A stretch of DNA of 51,078 bases from positions 1-51,078 of IMG/VR virus record IMGVR_UViG_3300036830_000098. One strand, written 5' to 3'. The notes under the pieces are model-generated. The model saw only the letters and a program-made list of their open reading frames with translations. It searched no databases and was not told the origin of the DNA. Shown piece by piece: positions 6,039 through 18,344 of this stretch. The position numbers and the translations under genes are program-made. The stretch's first letter is position 1. Every line of letters begins with the position of its first letter. The DNA is from a virus.

Positions 6039-7403
6039 CTAACCTGTCTGGCTGAAAATGCCAGGGTTAATGTTGTCGTTCGCAGGTTTGTCGAGCGCGC
6101 CCTGTTTTTCTTCCAACACTAGGGCAGCAGGTATGGCTGCGGCGTTCCACAGGCCGTTTCCCGCGGCAGCCCAAAAGTACACCGTGTAACTTGTTGATGT
6201 TACGACACCTGGGGCGTCGAAAGCGTACATCGGGACGGCACCCTGGCTACTCTGTCCTGCGATTCCCTGACTGCCGATAGCAGTAGAAGTCCCGCGATAG
6301 ATAGACGATATGGCAGCGCCGGTTGAAGAACCGCCCAGCATTCCGAATGCTTGCGCGCGAATCAAATTGGCGGCAGAAGTGGGAGTGATCGCTCCGGTAA
6401 GATGCGTCGCGGTCGGAGTCGTTCCCGAACCCGTCGTCGCTTGTGAATTTGTAAAATATAGCGTCCGCACTACGGCGCCCGGCTTCGGAATGCCAGGACC
6501 AAACATTTGTAAAGTCGTACATGAACTAGCCCATGTGCCGGCAGTAGCCATCCCGCTGGAGAAATCGCAGTAGCCGATGATACGTACCGCGTCCAAGTTA
6601 ACGCCCGTAGTGGCATACAGCGTCCCAGCGGTGCCGGCACTCCCACTTATGGTAGTGCTGGTTACGAGCGTACTTTCCCATGCCGCACACGAAAAAATAG
6701 TCGTAGTGTTACTGCACGTCGCAACACCCAGCTCAGGCGTCCCTCCATTGTACTCAACAAAAATCCAAACGCGAAAAGGGCATGTACTGCCGTTGGCGCA
6801 ACTGCCGCTATTCGACGAAGTACCGAGTGTCGCACCGGAAGGAACGGTGATGGACAACGGCGCAGAAATGGTGCTCCACGTCACCGTACCTGTCGTCAAC
6901 GCAGTAGACCGGAACGGCACCAATACCGGATTGTTACTGGTCGGCGCGCTGCCATTTGCTTGCGTCAAGTTGATAACCAACGCGCCGCCAGAAGGACTCG
7001 GAACCGACAGACCGAGATTGATCGGCATGTCGTAGCCGGTCTGCACGGCGATGTTTCCGCAACTTTCCCCGACGCCTGCGGTATAGCGGAGCGCTTGATT
7101 GACAGCCGTACACGGCGCCCTAGGAACGTCCACGACAGTCGTTCCGTTCAAACTGCCTTTGTAAGTGTCGGCAGCGCCGGCCGCAAAACCGCTATTGGCG
7201 ATATTGCCGAAAGCCGGATCAGTCGTCGGCCCGGTGCTGACAAACGGCTGGCCCGCGGTTCCGGGTACGGCGGCACCAAAGCCCTGATAGCCGCTACCTT
7301 TACCGATCGGTACGGAGTGATTTGGCGTCTGCCATTGCGCAAACGCAGGAGTGCCAACCAGCAACAATGCAGCGGCGAAGAAGGCGCGGAACGTTTTCAT
7401 CAT
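6039..7403 (-). CDS. Exported tail-appendage-like protein with Sec signal
   Basis: 454 residues. It starts at ATG 7403 overlapping the upstream stop (ATGATG). The first ~23 residues are a clear Sec signal (Lys-Thr-Phe-Arg, hydrophobic core, Ala-Phe-Ala then Gln). After it comes Gly-Ser-Gly-Tyr-Gln-Gly-Phe and Pro-Gly-Thr-Ala-Gly-Gln-Pro-Phe-Val-Ser, a wording I associate with Rhizobiales phage tail proteins, then Ser/Thr/Gly-rich beta structure to the end. No catalytic motif is recognised. It is the last gene of the tail-appendage run before terminase. A virion role is likely, but a cleaved signal peptide on a virion protein is odd. Confidence 0.7.
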   Translation of the reverse strand: MMKTFRAFFAAALLLVGTPAFAQWQTPNHSVPIGKGSGYQGFGAAVPGTAGQPFVSTGPTTDPAFGNIANSGFAAGAADTYKGSLNGTTVVDVPRAPCTAVNQALRYTAGVGESCGNIAVQTGYDMPINLGLSVPSPSGGALVINLTQANGSAPTSNNPVLVPFRSTALTTGTVTWSTISAPLSITVPSGATLGTSSNSGSCANGSTCPFRVWIFVEYNGGTPELGVATCSNTTTIFSCAAWESTLVTSTTISGSAGTAGTLYATTGVNLDAVRIIGYCDFSSGMATAGTWASSCTTLQMFGPGIPKPGAVVRTLYFTNSQATTGSGTTPTATHLTGAITPTSAANLIRAQAFGMLGGSSTGAAISSIYRGTSTAIGSQGIAGQSSQGAVPMYAFDAPGVVTSTSYTVYFWAAAGNGLWNAAAIPAALVLEEKQGALDKPANDNINPGIFSQTG

Positions 7404-8017
7404 CCAATAACCCATGAGTTCAGGTTCGGGGACGGCCTAAGAACAATACTAGCGAGTTGGTCAGCAGTGGACAAAAGAGTCCACGAATTTTTCTGCATAA
7501 TTGTTGCGCCATCCGGCGTCGTCAACGCGATTGCGTGGTTCGCCACGTTGGTAGAAAAGTCCACGATTTGAAGTCTGTTGCTGTATATAGAGAACTGCGC
7601 GCCGAGTGGCGGAAGTATGACCGAAGTAGTCGCCGGGTTATTTCTCTGTACGGCTGCCAGCGTAACGCCCGGATTTACGGTGTTGATTGGATCGACCATG
7701 GATTGAAAATCATAAGGCGCTACGATGCCGGCAAGAAACTCAGTCCATAATGTCGGCGTGGCTACCTCGTATTCCGTCGTGACTGAGTTCCATAGGTAAA
7801 ACGTTCCTTCTGCCACCCACGATGGAAGCGCCGGTTTCAACCATGCCGTCGTAGCCTGGTTAACCGTAGGCGCCACCTGTCCAACGGAGAGGCTGAAAAA
7901 TCCGGCACGCGCAAGCGCGGCAATAATGTAATCCAGCCCCGGCATGCGTTCCGAGCGCACGCCGCCGGCCGTGAGCCGCAGCAAGCCTAGAAAATCGGTG
8001 GCTGGGTTGTAACTCAT
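7400..8017 (-). CDS. Tail-appendage protein (hypothetical)
   Basis: 205 residues, started at the ATG that overlaps the previous stop (ATATGA), which suits the tight operon better than the longer upstream extension. The N-terminus has Gly-Gly-Val-Arg-Ser-Glu-Arg-Met-Pro-Gly-Leu-Asp-Tyr, followed by Trp/Pro-rich beta segments (Trp-Leu-Lys-Pro-Ala-Leu-Pro-Ser-Trp; Thr-Leu-Trp-Thr-Glu-Phe). Such proteins occur beside tail fibre genes. Its ends overlap both neighbours by about 4 bp, so it is cotranslated with them. Exact role unknown. Confidence 0.7.
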   Translation of the reverse strand: MSYNPATDFLGLLRLTAGGVRSERMPGLDYIIAALARAGFFSLSVGQVAPTVNQATTAWLKPALPSWVAEGTFYLWNSVTTEYEVATPTLWTEFLAGIVAPYDFQSMVDPINTVNPGVTLAAVQRNNPATTSVILPPLGAQFSIYSNRLQIVDFSTNVANHAIALTTPDGATIMQKNSWTLLSTADQLASIVLRPSPNLNSWVIG

Positions 8018-10189: not shown

Positions 10190-10536
10190 GGCTTAGGCGG
10201 CGCGGGCAGCGCGGGCGCGGGAGGGCCACCGTCGAGTTTTGCCTCGACGCGCTGCACCTGAGAGCTGATGTAGACGATGGCCGTTTCGACGCGGCTCAGT
10301 CTTTGGTCAGCCAGGGTCTGCGCATCGCGGGTCTTGGCGAGCGATTGATACACGGTCTGGAACCGAGTATCGGAGCCTTTTGCGACCTCTTCAGTCCTTG
10401 ATGAAACCTGGTCGAGCTTGTCGGAAAGGCCGCGGTAATTCGACGACGCGATCCAGATATTCGTGGCGATAATTCCAACCGTGCTGATGACTGCGACAAC
10501 GGCAGCTGGCCCTATCGTACTGTCAAATTTCAGCAT
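10186..10536 (-). CDS. Membrane-anchored coiled-coil protein with Pro-rich tail
   Basis: 116 residues: N-terminal transmembrane helix (about 9-30), coiled coil (about 35-100), and a Pro/Ala tail (Pro-Pro-Ala-Pro-Ala-Leu-Pro-Ala-Pro-Pro-Lys-Pro). A periplasmic coiled coil plus Pro-rich end after a single N-terminal span is typical of inner-membrane spanin subunits. Its ATG overlaps the lipase stop, and its stop overlaps the next ATG. Paralogous in plan to 9827-10189. Spanin is an inference from topology and position. Confidence 0.65.
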   Translation of the reverse strand: MLKFDSTIGPAAVVAVISTVGIIATNIWIASSNYRGLSDKLDQVSSRTEEVAKGSDTRFQTVYQSLAKTRDAQTLADQRLSRVETAIVYISSQVQRVEAKLDGGPPAPALPAPPKP

Positions 10537-11204
10537 TCTTTCGTCCTTTTGCCGGGAGCGCTGCGATAGAGCTGCATATGATGGTAACGCGCCGCGCCGT
10601 TGTCGCCCAACGCTGGTGCCTGATAGAGATGGATCAACGGCGTCGGACGCCTAAAAGGTAACCTTGGGGGGCTTGGAATTGGCGAATCTGTCACGAGATC
10701 GTGACCGCCCTCATCCTCGTTACAGTAGCTCGATTGCCACGGGATCGGATTCAGCAGATCGCAAAAAGAAGCAAAACCGGGGTACGGTTCACCAAAGACA
10801 ACGCGCCCGGTCGGCACGTCTCCGTCGAGGATCGCCAACCCGCAGAACACATCCGCACGCGCGGCCCCTAGTGAATGGCCGCCAACCCAAAGCTGCTTTT
10901 CTGGCCGGCGCAACGATTTTGCCTTAACCCACACAGCTCCCATGAAGAGGAGAAAACCATTGTGAACTTGCCCGAGGCGCGCATCGACTGAAGGCGCTAC
11001 GATAAAATCGAGGTCAACTAACCATTCGGCAGGGTCATAAGTGCCTCGGAAAATGAAAACGTCAGCGTCGTCGAAATACTTCACGCCGAAGCGGACACCA
11101 GTAAAGCCGCTCGCTTCGGACAGGTAATCCCAGGCGATTGGGGCTTCACCCGGATAGGCGTAAATGCCGCAGCAAAGGTCTGCAATGTCTTGGTCAGTCG
11201 GCAT
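10530..11204 (-). CDS. Class 3 lipase-like alpha/beta hydrolase
   Basis: 224 residues with the lipase class 3 order: Val-Phe-Ile-Phe-Arg-Gly-Thr near 49-55, Trp-Leu-Val-Asp-Leu near 61-65, Val-His-Asn-Gly-Phe near 80-84, the nucleophile elbow Gly-His-Ser-Leu-Gly-Ala with Ser111, an acidic candidate at Asp169 or Asp173, and a C-terminal His208/His209. The family hydrolyses ester bonds of lipids. No signal peptide. It sits between the beta-barrel fusion and the coiled-coil membrane genes with overlapping ends. A role in outer-membrane disruption at lysis, or as a virion lipase at entry, is inference. Confidence 0.75.
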   Translation of the reverse strand: MPTDQDIADLCCGIYAYPGEAPIAWDYLSEASGFTGVRFGVKYFDDADVFIFRGTYDPAEWLVDLDFIVAPSVDARLGQVHNGFLLFMGAVWVKAKSLRRPEKQLWVGGHSLGAARADVFCGLAILDGDVPTGRVVFGEPYPGFASFCDLLNPIPWQSSYCNEDEGGHDLVTDSPIPSPPRLPFRRPTPLIHLYQAPALGDNGAARYHHMQLYRSAPGKRTKEC

Positions 11205-11219
11205 TGCGGACTTTGCAAG

Positions 11220-12104
11220 TTAGAATTTGTAGTCCAGCCCAACCTTCACGACGTTGATAGACGGGCAACTCTGGCCCGTTGCACAGTTCGATGCCCCGGA
11301 CGGAAACTGATAGTTCTCGTAGCGTGCGTCAACGAACCAATGCTGCTGATCGATTGCGAACGTCACGCCTGCGCCGCCGACCATTCCAGTCGTACCCCAA
11401 CCGCTTTGCGCGGCGCCAAAGAAAATGTAAGGCGCAATCGTGTTCGCGGTCAGGATCGACGAAAGGCCTGTGGTGTTTGCCGGCGCAGGCGCCGATCCGA
11501 AGAATGTCGAGAACGGCGTACCGAGCTTGATGATCTCTTCCGCCAGATAGTGCGGGCTGGACTGCCCCGCGACCGGGCCGGAAGTACCGCCGTAGGTGTA
11601 GTCGATTGCAACCTCGGGACCGAAGAAGAAAGTACCGTTCCAGAACTGGTAGCCGCCTTGGACACCGATATTCTGGCCGCCAGCCGCGACCGAACCGTTG
11701 ATGCCGCCCGCCAGTACGTTCACATTGGTCGAAATGCCAGCAATATTGAAGCCGCCGTACCAGCCTGTGCAGGCGATCGGCGTGCATGGCGTAAAGGCCG
11801 CGAGCGCCAGTTTAGGCACAGGCTTGGCCGCATCGGCGGCGCGGGCCGAATACGGGCTCAAGATCAGCAGGGCGAAAACGACGGCGCCGGCCGCGCCGAA
11901 TTTCGACGATGACGGGCCGCCGGTATCGACGGGCTTTGACGGAGCCTTATTCGGCACCGCGTAGACCAATATGGTTCCGAGGACGCTGGCAAGCGCGGCC
12001 ATGTTCTCGGGCGACACGTCAAATGAAAATCCGTACTTCTGATTGAGCCAAAGAAGAATGCCGGGGAGCAGCGCCGCAATGGCTTTGTCGAGAACGGTCA
12101 GCAT
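11220..12104 (-). CDS. Holin-like N-terminus fused to outer-membrane beta-barrel
   Basis: 294 residues, started at ATG 12104 behind GGAGAGG. Residues 1-52 contain a hydrophobic segment, Leu-Asn-Gln-Lys-Tyr-Gly-Phe, and a second segment ending Tyr-Ala-Val-Pro-Asn-Lys, like small phage holins. Residues 71-90 form another hydrophobic stretch ending Ser-Ala-Arg-Ala/Ala-Asp, a credible signal-peptidase site. From about 113 onward is an Omp25/31-type barrel (Trp-Tyr-Gly-Gly-Phe-Asn; alternating strands; final Tyr-Lys-Phe). No internal start separates the parts. Lies directly after the endolysin. It could be a holin-porin polyprotein or a bridge between both membranes. Confidence 0.7.
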   Translation of the reverse strand: MLTVLDKAIAALLPGILLWLNQKYGFSFDVSPENMAALASVLGTILVYAVPNKAPSKPVDTGGPSSSKFGAAGAVVFALLILSPYSARAADAAKPVPKLALAAFTPCTPIACTGWYGGFNIAGISTNVNVLAGGINGSVAAGGQNIGVQGGYQFWNGTFFFGPEVAIDYTYGGTSGPVAGQSSPHYLAEEIIKLGTPFSTFFGSAPAPANTTGLSSILTANTIAPYIFFGAAQSGWGTTGMVGGAGVTFAIDQQHWFVDARYENYQFPSGASNCATGQSCPSINVVKVGLDYKF

Positions 12105-12114
12105 GTTGCCTCTC

Positions 12115-12588
12115 CTACCTGGATACAAATTCAAAGTGCATGGGATCGGTGCGACCTTGGTAGTCGCCGCCCCATAGCGCACCCTGCTTTTTGAAAGCAT
12201 CGACAACCATGTTGTCGATCGTGCCGTGCCCGGTGTTGAATCCGTTGGTGGTTGGCGAAATATCGACCGCGCAGGCCCACGAATGATTAGACCAGTTGTT
12301 GCTGCCGGCGATGTTGCGGATATTGAAACAGCCGCCCCAGTCGCTCGCGCCAGTTTGATCGACGGCTGCCTGATCCTGACCGCATTGCGCCCAAATGTCG
12401 GCAAACACGGCGGTCAACGGCGGTACGATCAACTTATGAACGAGAATGCCGTGCGTCATTGGCTGCTTGTCATAGTACATGACGAACGGCGCGTTCATGT
12501 GCACGAGATTCAAATCCTGCCAGCCCGGCGAGTGAAAATCGCCGTAAAAGGCGTTTTTCGATATAGTGTCGTCGTGCGGCCAGTTCAT
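12115..12588 (-). CDS. Endolysin, peptidase M15 (VanY/L-Ala-D-Glu type)
   Basis: 157-residue single-domain peptidoglycan peptidase. The M15 zinc site is visible: His102 in Ser-Asn-His-Ser-Trp-Ala-Cys-Ala-Val-Asp109, and Asp148-Pro-Met-His151-Phe-Glu near the C-terminus; Gly-Gly-Cys-Phe-Asn-Ile-Arg precedes the first motif as in phage M15 endolysins. It cleaves stem-peptide bonds of murein at the end of infection. No signal peptide, so release needs a holin; holin-like segments are in the next gene and in the 30-aa peptide upstream. Spacing to the fusion gene is 10 bp. Confidence 0.85.
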   Translation of the reverse strand: MNWPHDDTISKNAFYGDFHSPGWQDLNLVHMNAPFVMYYDKQPMTHGILVHKLIVPPLTAVFADIWAQCGQDQAAVDQTGASDWGGCFNIRNIAGSNNWSNHSWACAVDISPTTNGFNTGHGTIDNMVVDAFKKQGALWGGDYQGRTDPMHFEFVSR

Positions 12589-12771: not shown

Positions 12772-15700
12772 CTATCCCGCCTCCTTCAAGAACGCCGGGC
12801 TGTTGTCGTTTGATGCTGGGTCGAGATCGCGTTTAAGCAGGTAGTTGGTCTGGATGTAGCAGTAGCCGTTGCCGCCCGTGCCGATATAGACGCGCCCCGG
12901 CACTACTTGGTCACCATCCATGCTTACGACGCCTTCAATTGTCCCGCACTGATAGGTCGAAATCTTCGCCCACGTCGAGGCATTATCGTCAGATTCCCAA
13001 ATTCCATAAACACCATTATACCAAGCACTGACGTAGATCGACGGCCACGACTTGCCTGATTTGATCGCCCCAAATCCGAAATACCCTGGCTCCTTCATAT
13101 TAGCGACCGCCGCCCATGTTGCTCCGCCATCTTGTGAGTACTCGAATGTTTCTGCGGCCGGATGTGTCGAGTATGAATTGCCCTGCGGTCCCATGCTTGC
13201 GTAAAGATAACCGGAGTGCCCCGGCATCGCCTTAAGCGTCTGGTTTGCGCCGCCGCCACCGAAGATCGTTGATGATTGCAGGACCGGAGTGCTGCAATTG
13301 GTCATCTTGTAGGTGCCGAATAGCGAATTGTAGAAATAAAATGTGTTTGGCGTAACGCGATCTGCCGCAACTATGTTTGCATCGAGATAGTAAGCAAATG
13401 GAAAACCAGAACCGGGCGGCACGATTTGACCAAAGCCTGTTGCTGGGGATGACCCTGGGTCTGAGGCATTTACCGTAATAGTCGTGCCGTGGCCAACGTT
13501 CGTTGCGGTGAATGTCCCGTTGTAGCCGGATGGAGAAAAACCATAGACGGTGAACGTCTTGTTGTTCGTCGCGTTGAATATGTATGGATCAATGTCTGTC
13601 GTGAAGGTAATTACCCCTCCGCTGTAGCTCGCCGCCGTGATCTTCGCAGGCGTTGGAACGCCGGGAAACTTCGGCATATTCCAAGTTTGACCACCGTCAA
13701 GCGTGCAATAGGCGTAGTCGTTATTAGCTATGACCACAGCCATGTTAGTTGGTGACGCCGCGGCGATTGCCCCACCGCGCTGATCGAACCATTGCACATA
13801 GCCGCCGCCTGTATAAGCATTCGTGAAAGCGGAGTCAGTGAGCTCGAAGGTCTGATTTGTATTGTTCTGGTTTGCTTCAATCCAGCAGCCGTTTGCCTCC
13901 GTCGTTCCCGTCACGCCATAGATGCAAATCTTATCGCCATTGCCGAGGCGGTTTACAGCAACGGGAACGGTGACTTGAATTTTCCCGCTTCCGTTATTTT
14001 GGACGTTGGTGATGCCAAGCTGACCTGCAAGCGATGTTCCCGGCTGCGTTGTCGCGGCAACGAGATAGTTTCCGATTTGATTGACAACGTTAGCGTAGAT
14101 AGAATGATTAAGCGTGAAGTGTGTCGCGTCATCCACAGTGACCGTGTAGTAGCCCGTCACGCCATTATTCGGGGCGTCGTTATAACCAAAGACTTGAACC
14201 ATGCTACCCGCACCCGCCGACCAAGTGGTGAGCGCCGCCGTTGATGGAACTAGGAATTGTATCTTGCCTCCATTATTCAGGACGTGTGTATTATCGTTAG
14301 TCAGTGTCTGGCTGTAAGTTCCGAACAGTGTCCATGTTGCTCCACCATCGTTCGAATAGCCGCTTTGGTTGCCGCCAAGAATAAAATAACTAATATATCC
14401 CGCGATGAAATTTGGATCGCTCGTCGCCCAATCCAGACCAAAACCGACTTCTAGCGAACTTGTATTAAGTGTCGTTGTATTTTGCTGCGTCGGATAAGTG
14501 CTTGGGTTAGCCGTAAGTTTATAGATCGATCGATCCTGCACGCCAACAATGGGCGAGCCGTTAGGTGAAATGACGGTCCAAGAATCCAGCGTCTCCGTCC
14601 CGGCAAGCCTGCTATTCCAGACAAAGCTTACAGCCGTGCTAGGCGGATTTGTGTACCAAGGGCCGATGCCTTCGCCAAACCACAGGCCGTTACTGTCCGA
14701 TTTATCAAACTGAATGTCACCAGCCGACATGGCATATTCGTTCGTCCATGCAGCCCAAGGTACATCGGTTGCCGAGCGCGTGAAATTAAGCGAGCCAGTC
14801 CAGGTTGATCCAGTATTAGACGAAACGTTCAAGTGCCCGAAACCTGATACGGTCACAATATGCGTCGCGTCATTCGGATCGACAGCAACGGAATGTAGAC
14901 CGCTTGCTCCCGCCGCAGTTACGTTCGTCCACGATCCAGAAGAATATTTCCAAAGGCTACCGCTCGAATTGGAAACTGTCGTACCGCCGTCGATGGCCCA
15001 TACGTTGCCGCCGCTCGCTGCCACGACCATATGCTGCATCGACGTAGGACCGCCAGGGATTTCCGCCCAGGTCGATCCAGCGTTTGTTGTTTGGTAAGTC
15101 GTACCATCGTAAGCCGTGCCGCCAGAAACATAGCTGCCTGGGTTGCTCGCAAGATTGACGACGACGCTTGTGCCACTCGTCCCAGCCTGTGCAATGTAGA
15201 TGCCGTTATAACTGGAAGGGCTAACGCCTTGGATACTAATGCGGCTACCTACTGCGAAATCAGAGCGGAGATTGGGGATCGTAAAAGTCGCTTGGTTCGT
15301 CGCCCAACTTGCGGCGCTGACGGCAACGACATGGTTCGTGAAAACATATGCCGTGTTTGTCGCGCCACCCGTGGTGCCTGAAGATGGGTCAAAGGCAATG
15401 TTGTAATTCGGATAGTTAGACCCTCCAACGCTATCGGCAGTCGCCATAGGAATTGCTGAAATCAAAGTCGAAGTATTGAAACCATCGGTCGTTGACCAAA
15501 GACCGTTTCGCTCCGTGCCTGCAATGACGATGTTAGCGTTGTTCGGATCAACAGCCATCTTGCGGCCGTTCATGCGATAAGTACCGTTGGGCGTCATAGC
15601 GGCGCCGACTTGCATCGCTTCGCCGCCTACGGTCTGCGATATGTTGACTGTGTAAGTTCCAGTGCCTCCAGTACCAGCCGTGGTTATTTCGGTGCCCGGT

Positions 15701-16218
15701 AAGATGCCGGCTCCAGTAACAAAACTATATTGCGTGATGTTGCCGGTGATCGCCGTAACGGTAAGTGTCGTGCCAGAGATCGATCCGGTGGTCTGCGCGC
15801 CACCAAAGTTAGTGCGCACCCACGACGCCCCACGATCAGTCGAAAGAAACACACCGCCTAGATATTGAACATAAATCGTGGACGATAGGCTTGGCGCGCT
15901 GGTGATCTCTTCGCAGGGACCCCCAAAGAGAAAAACCTGGTTGTTTCCGGTTCCGACAACGCCGGCCCAATTCACAGGAAGCGTTGTGGCCGTCAAGAGC
16001 CCGCTGAAAGTCTGAGTTCCTTTATTGTAAATGTACGGAGTTGAACTATCCTGCCGCGCGATGATGGTATTGCCATCAGGCGAAACGTCAAGCCCAACAG
16101 CCCACCCGCCACCGCCGATCTTGAGAGTAAATTCGCCCGCTGGATTAACCGGGCCCCCTGTTCCGTGTATCCAGCCAGCGGCAACAACGGCGATAGCTAC
16201 GAGTAAAAGGCGCTTCAC
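12772..16218 (-). CDS. Large beta-propeller (BNR/GH74-like) spike candidate
   Basis: 1148 residues, GTG start directly after the upstream stop. It has a hydrophobic signal-like N-terminus (Lys-Arg-Leu-Leu-Leu-Val-Ala). At least six Asp-box motifs are spread along it: Ser-Thr-Asp-Arg-Gly-Ala-Ser-Trp, Thr-Asn-Ala-Gly-Ser-Thr-Trp, Ser-Asn-Asp-Gly-Gly-Ala-Thr-Trp, Leu-Asp-Gly-Gly-Gln-Thr-Trp, Ser-Gln-Asp-Gly-Gly-Ala-Thr-Trp and Ser-Asp-Asp-Asn-Ala-Ser-Thr-Trp. These mark sialidase/GH74-type propellers that bind or cut polysaccharide. Ig-like Gly/Thr inserts lie between them. Among appendage genes it is the best tailspike candidate; substrate and catalysis are unknown. Confidence 0.75.
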   Translation of the reverse strand: MKRLLLVAIAVVAAGWIHGTGGPVNPAGEFTLKIGGGGWAVGLDVSPDGNTIIARQDSSTPYIYNKGTQTFSGLLTATTLPVNWAGVVGTGNNQVFLFGGPCEEITSAPSLSSTIYVQYLGGVFLSTDRGASWVRTNFGGAQTTGSISGTTLTVTAITGNITQYSFVTGAGILPGTEITTAGTGGTGTYTVNISQTVGGEAMQVGAAMTPNGTYRMNGRKMAVDPNNANIVIAGTERNGLWSTTDGFNTSTLISAIPMATADSVGGSNYPNYNIAFDPSSGTTGGATNTAYVFTNHVVAVSAASWATNQATFTIPNLRSDFAVGSRISIQGVSPSSYNGIYIAQAGTSGTSVVVNLASNPGSYVSGGTAYDGTTYQTTNAGSTWAEIPGGPTSMQHMVVAASGGNVWAIDGGTTVSNSSGSLWKYSSGSWTNVTAAGASGLHSVAVDPNDATHIVTVSGFGHLNVSSNTGSTWTGSLNFTRSATDVPWAAWTNEYAMSAGDIQFDKSDSNGLWFGEGIGPWYTNPPSTAVSFVWNSRLAGTETLDSWTVISPNGSPIVGVQDRSIYKLTANPSTYPTQQNTTTLNTSSLEVGFGLDWATSDPNFIAGYISYFILGGNQSGYSNDGGATWTLFGTYSQTLTNDNTHVLNNGGKIQFLVPSTAALTTWSAGAGSMVQVFGYNDAPNNGVTGYYTVTVDDATHFTLNHSIYANVVNQIGNYLVAATTQPGTSLAGQLGITNVQNNGSGKIQVTVPVAVNRLGNGDKICIYGVTGTTEANGCWIEANQNNTNQTFELTDSAFTNAYTGGGYVQWFDQRGGAIAAASPTNMAVVIANNDYAYCTLDGGQTWNMPKFPGVPTPAKITAASYSGGVITFTTDIDPYIFNATNNKTFTVYGFSPSGYNGTFTATNVGHGTTITVNASDPGSSPATGFGQIVPPGSGFPFAYYLDANIVAADRVTPNTFYFYNSLFGTYKMTNCSTPVLQSSTIFGGGGANQTLKAMPGHSGYLYASMGPQGNSYSTHPAAETFEYSQDGGATWAAVANMKEPGYFGFGAIKSGKSWPSIYVSAWYNGVYGIWESDDNASTWAKISTYQCGTIEGVVSMDGDQVVPGRVYIGTGGNGYCYIQTNYLLKRDLDPASNDNSPAFLKEAG

Positions 16219-17127
16219 TCAAAAGCCCCAATAAGTGTGCTGATTGGAGTTCAACGCAGAAAAGTTTGCTGAAATATCACTCGACCAAAAACCTCCTTCT
16301 TCGAATTTTCCATCAAGGCCGAGCGCGCCGCCACTGCTCAAGCCAATATTTATTGTCGTGCCAAAGCCAGTAGACCCTGCGCTTACTGCGTGGTTAGTGC
16401 CATCAATATAAAAAGCACTAGAGGCTCCATTCGCTAGTGCTCCTTCTGCATGCCAAGTACTATCGGCCGCCGACACGTTAGCGTGAGCGCCAAAATAGGC
16501 GCCAAGCTGATTAGCAGAGTTACCAAATTCAGGACCGCCCCCGGACGACACAAGGATTTCATTATATGATGTGACTGTTCCGGTTCTCACAGCAACAATT
16601 GAAAAACTAAAAGGTTGAGAAAACGTAGGTACTGACGACGTTTTCTTAAGCACCATTGAACTAGCGGCAACGAATACGGCACATACTTTACTTCCCAGGC
16701 AACTAAATGAAATCGTCGGACGACTGAGAATCGTGGCTTGCGTCACATCACACGCAGTAGAACCGGTGCAGGCCAGTGCGCCAGATTGGTCATAAAGTGT
16801 TTTGATTGTGCAAGTACCACCAACGCCTCCGCAGTTAAGTGGAGACCCTTGCGCCGTCGCGGCATCAAAATCGCCATTAGAAAGTGAATTTATATCCGCA
16901 CAATTTGCATCAGCGGCATTGCAAATATTAGCAATTTTAGTTCCTACTTTAGCCGAGCTGTAGGCGCGCAGGCCATACCACATTGTAGCTGATACAATAT
17001 CGCCAGGGCCGCTATATGCGCTACTCGCGACGCTTTTGTTGTAGTTACTATCCCGCGATTGCCAGAACGCACTTGCAGGCGCGGCAGTGCAGAGCGCAGC
17101 AATGATCAGCCAACGAATATATTTCAC
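16219..17127 (-). CDS. Exported arabinofuranosidase-B-like/lectin-fold protein
   Basis: 302 residues from GTG 17127, which overlaps the upstream stop (GTGA). Residues 1-20 form a Sec signal ending Ala-Ser-Ala. The rest resembles the AbfB catalytic/concanavalin-like fold: Ala-Tyr-Ser-Gly-Pro-Gly-Asp, Gly-Leu-Arg-Ala-Tyr-Ser, Cys-Thr-Ile-Lys-Thr-Leu-Tyr-Asp-Gln-Ser-Gly with paired Cys, and a C-terminal Phe-Glu-Glu-Gly-Gly-Phe-Trp. Such modules bind or hydrolyse arabinan-like sugars. Coupled to spike and beta-rich genes, it is probably part of the receptor-binding apparatus. Catalytic residues were not identified. Confidence 0.6.
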   Translation of the reverse strand: MKYIRWLIIAALCTAAPASAFWQSRDSNYNKSVASSAYSGPGDIVSATMWYGLRAYSSAKVGTKIANICNAADANCADINSLSNGDFDAATAQGSPLNCGGVGGTCTIKTLYDQSGALACTGSTACDVTQATILSRPTISFSCLGSKVCAVFVAASSMVLKKTSSVPTFSQPFSFSIVAVRTGTVTSYNEILVSSGGGPEFGNSANQLGAYFGAHANVSAADSTWHAEGALANGASSAFYIDGTNHAVSAGSTGFGTTINIGLSSGGALGLDGKFEEGGFWSSDISANFSALNSNQHTYWGF

Positions 17128-18344
17128 AGCGTAAAGCCCCAAGCCGTAACGGACACGACGCCGCCCGTTCCCGGTGCTGCGGAAATCACCGCAATGCCAG
17201 TGTTGACCGCACTGGCCGGGATGCAAGGTGTGAATATCTGCTCAGTCACGCCAAGTCCTGAAGCATTGGGCGCGGTCCATTGTGTGTAGTTCAACGTGCC
17301 CGTGATCGTGCCGGTTACGGTCGCGTTGCCTGTGGCCGCCGCCGTCGCATTTGCGCGGATCGAAAAACCGCAAATGTACGTCGTAACCGATGCGCCGGTA
17401 GCAAGTGTTGCCGTCGTAGCGCCCGTGGTTCCGGTGCCAGAAATCGTGATTGGCGTAGAACCAATGGGATAGCCCCCGCCCCCGATAAGCAAGCCGCCGC
17501 GCGGACCAACTTGCAACGGAACCGTTTGCCCAGTTGTCAGTGTCGGGGCGGTCGAATTGTAAATGCCGCCAATGACCTGCGTGTTCGTCGGCGCGGTGCC
17601 AGGAGTTGTTCCTGACATCAGTCCCCAAGTAGCGATGGTAGCGGGATCAACGGTGCCGATTTTATTTGTACCGGCAGGAATCGAACCGGCAATCCCGCCT
17701 GCGATATTTTTTAAGATCGCAATAGCCGTGCCACTGCCGCTCGACCAAGCCGCGTCCGAAGTCGTACCGAGTGCAACGTCCGCGCCGTCTGCTATTGTGA
17801 CTGCGCCACCTGAGCCTCCCCCGCCGCCGCCCCATCCTGTCGGCAGCCCGGAACCACCCGAGGCAATGACCACGTTCGACGCCGAGCCGGACTGGTCGAT
17901 GCAGGCGAAGTGATCGTAAGTCGTCGCGCCATAGACTGTCGCAAGCGGCAGACCGCTCGACGCGGGTATTTGCAGTTCACCAGTCGTGCCCGTCGCCGCG
18001 CCCGAAGCAAGCGTACAACTAACCGTGGTCGTGCCGGCGTTGAAGAGAATGACCGAGCCAGTGTTGGTCGGGATTGCTGTAGATGCGCACGCCGAGTTTG
18101 TCGCCGTGCAGGTTGCGTAGGCCAGGCTTGGGGCAAAGCCGCTTACCGTCGCGGTAACCGCCGCGGTCGTGCAAACATTTCCGTTTACATCCTGCACAAC
18201 CGGCTGGCGCTGGCCCTTTGTATAAGTGTAAGGCGCTGTGCCGCACGACTGGACAACGATGGCCAGCGCCGTCTGCTGCGCAACAGCAACGTGCGGCGCG
18301 AGTGCAAAGATCAAAAACAGGAATGCAGATAGCGTCTTTTTCAT
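17124..18344 (-). CDS. Exported Gly/Thr-rich tail-appendage protein
   Basis: 406 residues with a textbook Sec signal (Lys-Lys-Thr, hydrophobic core, Val-Ala-Val-Ala then Gln). After residue 25 come beta-rich Ser/Thr/Gly sequence, two Cys pairs, a glycine linker (about 168-180) and a C-terminal beta domain ending Trp-Gly-Phe-Thr-Leu. No enzyme motif. It is the first of three overlapping genes leading to the spike. A likely appendage protein by context and composition. Confidence 0.65.
   Translation of the reverse strand: MKKTLSAFLFLIFALAPHVAVAQQTALAIVVQSCGTAPYTYTKGQRQPVVQDVNGNVCTTAAVTATVSGFAPSLAYATCTATNSACASTAIPTNTGSVILFNAGTTTVSCTLASGAATGTTGELQIPASSGLPLATVYGATTYDHFACIDQSGSASNVVIASGGSGLPTGWGGGGGGSGGAVTIADGADVALGTTSDAAWSSGSGTAIAILKNIAGGIAGSIPAGTNKIGTVDPATIATWGLMSGTTPGTAPTNTQVIGGIYNSTAPTLTTGQTVPLQVGPRGGLLIGGGGYPIGSTPITISGTGTTGATTATLATGASVTTYICGFSIRANATAAATGNATVTGTITGTLNYTQWTAPNASGLGVTEQIFTPCIPASAVNTGIAVISAAPGTGGVVSVTAWGFTL

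Follow-up and report, generated by a model that had tools for sequence, protein, structure and literature searches.

An in-frame fusion of a holin-like module to a predicted outer-membrane barrel in a phage lysis cassette, probably encoding a lysis precursor that is cleaved into two parts

The window analyzed here is the whole 51,078-base stretch of virus record IMGVR_UViG_3300036830_000098. On its minus strand, a single open reading frame of 294 residues (ATG at 12104, stop at 11220) joins a two-helix holin-like module, a short linker whose positive charges are K53, K57, and K68, an internal signal-peptide-like helix, and a predicted eight-stranded outer-membrane barrel (Table 1). The original prediction had placed this gene correctly and did not mention the strand. 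The fused gene starts 10 nt after the stop codon of an M15 endolysin gene. Directly downstream, a class-3 lipase/esterase gene sits between the fusion and two genes for coiled-coil-like proteins; it is a possible member of the lysis cassette, and its product could act on envelope lipids at lysis. In the 120-residue coiled-coil-like protein, arginines immediately follow the hydrophobic segment, which would leave the body of the protein in the cytoplasm and thus points against an i-spanin. Small genes resembling this one come after the barrel in many relatives.

Table 1. Features of the fused gene and its neighbors in the window, and the three further fusions at positions in their own contigs.
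Feature	Position	Strand	Details
Fused holin-like / signal peptide / predicted 8-strand outer-membrane barrel gene	11220..12104	-	294 aa; Shine-Dalgarno AGGAGAGG upstream of ATG 12104
Two-helix holin-like module, residues 1-52	11949..12104	-	stand-alone relatives L003, L005
Short positively charged linker and internal signal-peptide-like helix ending ARA, residues 53-89	11838..11948	-	
Putative mature 8-stranded barrel, residues 90-294, C-terminal Phe	11223..11837	-	predicted structure
M15 (D-Ala-D-Ala carboxypeptidase-like) endolysin, directly upstream	12115..12588	-	Pfam PF13539, 51 bits; PHROG endolysin families
Class-3 lipase/esterase, directly downstream	10530..11204	-	PF01764, 39.9 bits; phrog_21992
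Single N-terminal hydrophobic segment and coiled-coil-like protein, 116 aa	10186..10536	-	no family above cut-off
Single N-terminal hydrophobic segment and coiled-coil-like protein, 120 aa	9827..10189	-	no Pfam family above cut-off
Fusion L014	3791-4654		287 aa; beside M15 endolysin 60% identical to the window's
Fusion L051	3731-4642		303 aa, counted from first GTG
Fusion L054	3662-4516		284 aa, counted from Met 66 of open frame

The Shine-Dalgarno duplex energy at the start of the fused gene is -9.1, within the range of -5.5 to -16.7 seen at 16 unfused barrel starts. The earlier statement that the frame contains no internal start is a slight overstatement: codons 51-81 are indeed without ATG, GTG, or TTG, and upstream of them lie the candidates GTG50, TTG46, and ATG35, with weak Shine-Dalgarno energies (-2.7 to -3.5). 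On these energies we rejected a separate barrel start inside the frame, GTG50 being the remaining candidate. Possible internal starts in other fusions are GTG84 (L051) and TTG67 (L014). Scans of the fused protein against Pfam, PHROG, and NCBIfam gave no family above cut-off, and a PDB sequence search gave no match. No match was returned by tblastn against phages for the fused protein, L014 and its N-terminus, L016, L054, the L003 holin-like gene, or the barrels of L007 and L045; by tblastn against plasmids with L009 and L054; by scans of genome_contigs; or by a PF13505 search of the window's own record.

The two hydrophobic segments reported for residues 1-52 are present, with helices predicted at residues 4-24 and 32-47, although the hairpin is modeled by AF2 at low confidence (pLDDT about 40-60). 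A holin is expected to be small and phage-encoded, to have one or more transmembrane helices, to lie beside the endolysin in a lysis cassette, and to match a described holin family. Like two-helix holins, the window module has two hydrophobic helices and directly follows the endolysin; unlike them, it is without a family match and continues in frame into a signal peptide and a barrel. For residues 1-58 nothing exceeded the cut-off in Pfam, PHROG, or NCBIfam, the sole holin-type match being phrog_7198 at E = 0.25, and the best tblastn hit of the N-terminus against phages reached only E = 5. We regard the module as a putative holin on the basis of its layout and its neighbors. It does match stand-alone genes in other contigs, at L003 4974-5267 (E = 2.7e-10) and L005 4001-4159 (E = 4e-4). 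The first of these has a Hydrolase_2 endolysin on one side and a lipoprotein on the other, and the second is followed by an N-anchored protein with an out-of-frame lipoprotein. This latter stretch, L005 4156-4528, comes directly after the holin-like gene and resembles an Rz/Rz1 pair with the lipoprotein frame embedded out of frame, which we take to be the Rz/Rz1 layout.

For the C-terminal part, structure prediction had been suggested as a check on the original prediction. Using a 10-row alignment (A7), AF2 returned a model with a mean pLDDT of 66 and eight strands between residues 114 and 293 (114-125, 144-155, 160-171, 185-195, 222-234, 238-250, 256-271, and 280-293); run without an alignment, it gave a poor model (pLDDT 37.8). 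The barrel is thus borne out by the prediction, and the chain ends in Phe as described (...DYKF). In VIA-align 2 the top structural match is OprF (4rlc; Z 14.8, rmsd 2.6, 123 aligned), followed by porin III of the Legionella Dot/Icm machine (9nh2; Z 14.7) and OmpA (1qjp; Z 14.2, rmsd 2.3, 123 aligned), and NspA and OmpW score only slightly lower. A Foldseek search is in agreement and additionally retrieves phage-encoded outer-membrane barrels from BFVD (for example, A0A6J5MAZ5 and A0A6J5LBY6), which have the eight-strand fold in common with the window protein but only 14-18% identity in the three best BFVD structure alignments. The predicted model places the eight strands in a closed barrel of the OmpA/OprF/OmpX/OmpW type. 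The more specific label "Omp25/31-like", a name that we take to denote a family of Rhizobiales, came from motif similarity and is not supported by Pfam. With Pfam OMP_b-brl and OmpA_membrane as stand-ins for that family, the window protein scored 11.4 bits against OmpA_membrane (cut-off 21) and its relative L007 scored 26.3 against OMP_b-brl (cut-off 28.7).

Between the two modules, the third hydrophobic stretch with its signal-peptidase-like site is confirmed at about residues 69-85 (predicted helix 72-81). In alignment A7, the motif ARA/ADA (87-91) coincides with the expected cut sites in the signal peptides of unfused relatives. In the fusions that could be aligned (window and L014), the third helix is matched to the signal peptides of the unfused barrels. 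The four fusions known to us have the sites ARA, ARA, ASA, and AHA, all of the AxA form, and each also carries a positively charged residue ahead of the hydrophobic core. A barrel of the OmpA/OprF/OmpX class is expected to have a Sec signal peptide and an aromatic C-terminal residue; the fused protein ends in Phe and has, at the aligned site, a putative Sec signal peptide that is internal. From the predicted cleavage site to the second conserved cysteine there are 18-26 residues in the fusions and 19-35 in 15 of the 16 unfused barrels; the latter range is an upper estimate, because the automatic sites in L015, L016, L021, L052, L053, and L067 are the first AxA rather than the one nearest the AD motif and L063 has no assigned site. 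Since the tail of the fusions is not lengthened and the third helix aligns with signal peptides, a cut precursor is favored. The original prediction had offered cutting into a holin and a porin as one option. The cutting is supported, because the third hydrophobic stretch aligns with signal peptides that are cleavable in the stand-alone relatives; "porin" goes too far, as a fold of the OmpA/OprF/OmpX/OmpW type need not be an open pore.

We find the same kind of fusion in other viral contigs. Searches of viral_contigs yielded L002, a stand-alone barrel that carries a signal peptide of its own, and the stand-alone holin-like gene of L003, and wider barrel searches gave 20 distinct barrels, window included. 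Sixteen are unfused, and four are in frame with two hydrophobic helices and a third helix with an AxA site. Loci that repeat the same contig or a near-identical one (L001, L008, L010, L012, L017-L020, L037, L050, L055-L058, L062, L064, and L066) were left out of the barrel tree, as was the L045 barrel, which is not a relative by either BLASTP or HMM. When the N-terminal modules were compared with the 4,093 ORFs from all loci, none of the four matched another fused one. The L051 module matches L023 (4.2e-15), L025 (3.9e-14), and L029 (1.2e-8), the L054 module matches L021 (1e-4) and L027 (1.3e-4), and the L014 module matches only itself. Thus three of the four modules have stand-alone counterparts, most of them in holin-type slots; in L025, L027, and L029 the counterpart is the gene next after an M15 endolysin. 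In the 20-row tree the fused barrels fall in four places and require four changes, two of which are forced even when only strongly supported branches are considered; they form a single group in 0% of 200 bootstrap trees. An AU test rejects a single fused clade (p-AU = 3.4e-6, or 2.3e-6 without the long-branched window row); the fused group was named before tree building, the result is model-dependent, and the window's own placement is unsure. L051, which is fused, and L009, in which the two genes are separated by a 9-nt gap, have flanking genes in common (77% and 66% identical), and in L065 the holin-like and barrel genes overlap as ATGA, the intermediate one would expect. As judged from sequence comparison, the fusion is real and recurrent. 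Relatives with separate, unlinked parts had been named as evidence that would count against a meaningful fusion; separate parts do exist, and they are mostly adjacent rather than unlinked.

We examined the lysis context of the barrel family in two ways. First, for 12 of the 16 unfused barrels a small ORF containing a hydrophobic segment ends no more than 800 nt upstream, a count that includes L061, whose ORF lies amid structural-type genes, and L052, whose nearest ORF is a doubtful frame. The other four (L002, L011, L013, and L016) have no such ORF in this interval. In half of the unfused loci (L015, L007, L021, L052, L053, L059, L060, and L063) Pfam supports an upstream gene as wall-lytic or peptidoglycan-binding. 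Of the other upstream candidates scanned, that of L067 has no match, that of the fused L054 is a sub-threshold GH19 (17.5 versus a cut-off of 25.5), and no upstream wall-lytic candidate was seen in L051. Second, we collected 27 loci with endolysins 35-81% identical to those of the window and L014, a set that includes repeats (L033/L034 and L026/L028 look alike, L037 is the contig of L014, and L042 that of L002). Within 2 kb downstream of the endolysin, 16 of these loci carry a lipoprotein, often as the gene after the holin, two a barrel (L037 and L045), nine neither, and none both. In this slot after the endolysin, Pfam Phage_holin_10 (the Pam3 gp28 family) is the holin family found in related cassettes, with scores above the cut-off of 27 in L031 (41.5 bits) and L032 (27.2 bits) among eight proteins scanned, five of them from holin-type slots. 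At L045 4635-5914, the order is M15 endolysin, holin-like gene, and then a separate protein with a signal peptide and an aromatic C-terminus. This last protein has the look of an unrelated outer-membrane barrel and occupies the position held by a lipoprotein in relatives.

A lipobox scan found no lipoprotein beside the barrels of the window, L037, and L045 (within the cassette or 2 kb); the same scan recovered the expected lipoproteins in L003, L005, and L022. Its flag at L007 5362-5892 was judged spurious, an arginine-rich overlapping frame. Counting the window, there are three barrels and 16 lipoproteins in 28 loci, and by our own arithmetic the chance of no overlap is 0.07, so that with three barrels only the pattern is weak and not significant alone. 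The gene order nevertheless suggests that the barrel occupies a position often taken by an outer-membrane lipoprotein, and with no lipoprotein in the barrel-bearing cassettes the barrel may do the outer-membrane job.

Starting from the joined frame, the module boundaries, the recurrent independent fusions, and the conserved cleavage-site motif, all of which the analysis shows, we propose that the fused gene probably encodes a lysis protein that is processed into two pieces; its lytic role we infer. The lysis-cassette gene would yield a precursor in which a two-helix holin-like module, a hairpin with both N- and C-terminus inside, is linked to a phage outer-membrane barrel by the Sec signal peptide that belongs to the barrel and has become internal. 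The charges K53, K57, and K68 after helix 2 fit a hairpin with both ends cytoplasmic, so the signal-peptide helix would enter the inner membrane as a third segment in export orientation. Signal peptidase I would then cut after ARA, at residue 89, leaving the N-terminal piece in the inner membrane as a holin and releasing the barrel to the outer membrane in a 1:1 ratio and with the same late timing. That the precursor is cut into an inner-membrane holin and an outer-membrane barrel we hold to be reasonably probable. More tentatively, the barrel may be the outer-membrane component of the cassette, in the slot of the small lipoprotein of related phages. If correct, this layout would be an unusual route to two membrane effectors from one phage gene.

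A role of the barrel in outer-membrane rupture is plausible. The stronger version is speculative, and we would sooner bet against it than for it: that these cassettes are spanin-less, that the barrel rather than a lipoprotein spanin ruptures the outer membrane, and that it was welded several times to the upstream holin so that one split precursor supplies both agents in a fixed ratio. Unimolecular spanins, as described in PMC6139136, have an N-terminal lipobox and a C-terminal helix. The fused protein shares with this class (T1 gp11 type) a single lysis-cassette chain with inner- and outer-membrane parts. It differs in that the lipobox scan of the fused gene found none, its C-terminus is a predicted barrel strand (280-293) instead of a transmembrane helix, the order of the parts is reversed, and a signal-peptidase-like site separates them. 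Compared with two-component spanins and lysis-cassette lipoproteins, the barrel takes the same post-holin position and is a barrel instead of a lipoprotein. PMC6139136 also states that spanins were not found in 91 of 677 surveyed phages, discusses other routes, and asks by what means phages of this kind breach the outer membrane. With its position in the lipoprotein slot and its repeated fusion to holin-like modules, the barrel offers a concrete and testable candidate for outer-membrane opening without a spanin; among the papers searched, none on a fusion of holin and outer-membrane barrel was found.

The main alternative is that the barrel has no part in lysis and is a surface-altering passenger placed in the late operon, acting in superinfection exclusion or receptor masking, with the fusion tying its expression to late genes. 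Lom-type phage outer-membrane proteins are a model for such a role. Phage-borne outer-membrane barrels are common in BFVD, and members of the same barrel family lie amid structural-type genes with no small hydrophobic ORF upstream (L011, L013, and L016). Indeed, the four loci without this ORF, together with those amid structural-type genes, indicate that the barrel is not tied to lysis everywhere. However, the fusion recurs specifically with holin-like modules, most unfused barrels follow a small hydrophobic ORF and half a supported wall-lytic or peptidoglycan-binding gene, and a lipoprotein fills the same slot in many related cassettes. We consider a passenger possible and rather doubtful.

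Alternatively, the N-terminal module might be not a holin but any membrane anchor, or an extended leader affecting when the barrel is exported. This would agree with the lack of a holin-family match of weight for all four modules (in Pfam, PHROG, and NCBIfam for the window), yet the genes of the stand-alone relatives (L003, L005, L025, L029, L021, and L027) either come immediately after an endolysin or precede a lipoprotein or an Rz/Rz1-like pair, and we think it improbable. The original prediction had also considered an uncut chain working as a one-piece spanin, with hairpin and third helix in the inner membrane and barrel in the outer. One frame does hold inner- and outer-membrane parts in a single chain, but the cleavage-site motif is that of the stand-alone relatives, there is no lipobox, and the roughly 22 residues from site to barrel (about 80 A fully stretched, by our own arithmetic) are no longer than in unfused relatives, where a periplasm-bridging protein would be expected to need a longer tether; we judge this reading very unlikely. 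Finally, that assembly or sequencing error fused two genes is scarcely credible, even with no close relative of the window gene found, since three independent in-frame fusions in other contigs exclude the sequencing frameshift that the original prediction had named as a possible refutation, the junction needs no frame change, and third-position G+C remains high across it.

Within the barrel family, the best-conserved part is the first loop, GSNADIIGSGINGSVFA-like, at 11676-11729 of the window (residues 126-143), which is predicted to form a short helix; in outer-membrane barrels, variability is usually highest in the surface loops. A C-x4-C pair before the first strand (Cys107-Cys112 in the window, 11769-11786) is kept in 15 of the 20 barrels, and the other five retain only the second cysteine. 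Elsewhere in the window, long ORFs of the tail-type region, all on the minus strand (6039-7415, 12772-16218, 16219-17226, and 17124-18344), begin with signal-peptide-like sequences such as MMKTFRAFFAAALLLVGTPAFAQ. Such starts are unusual for virion proteins; similar ones are found on ORFs of L009, L021, and L051.
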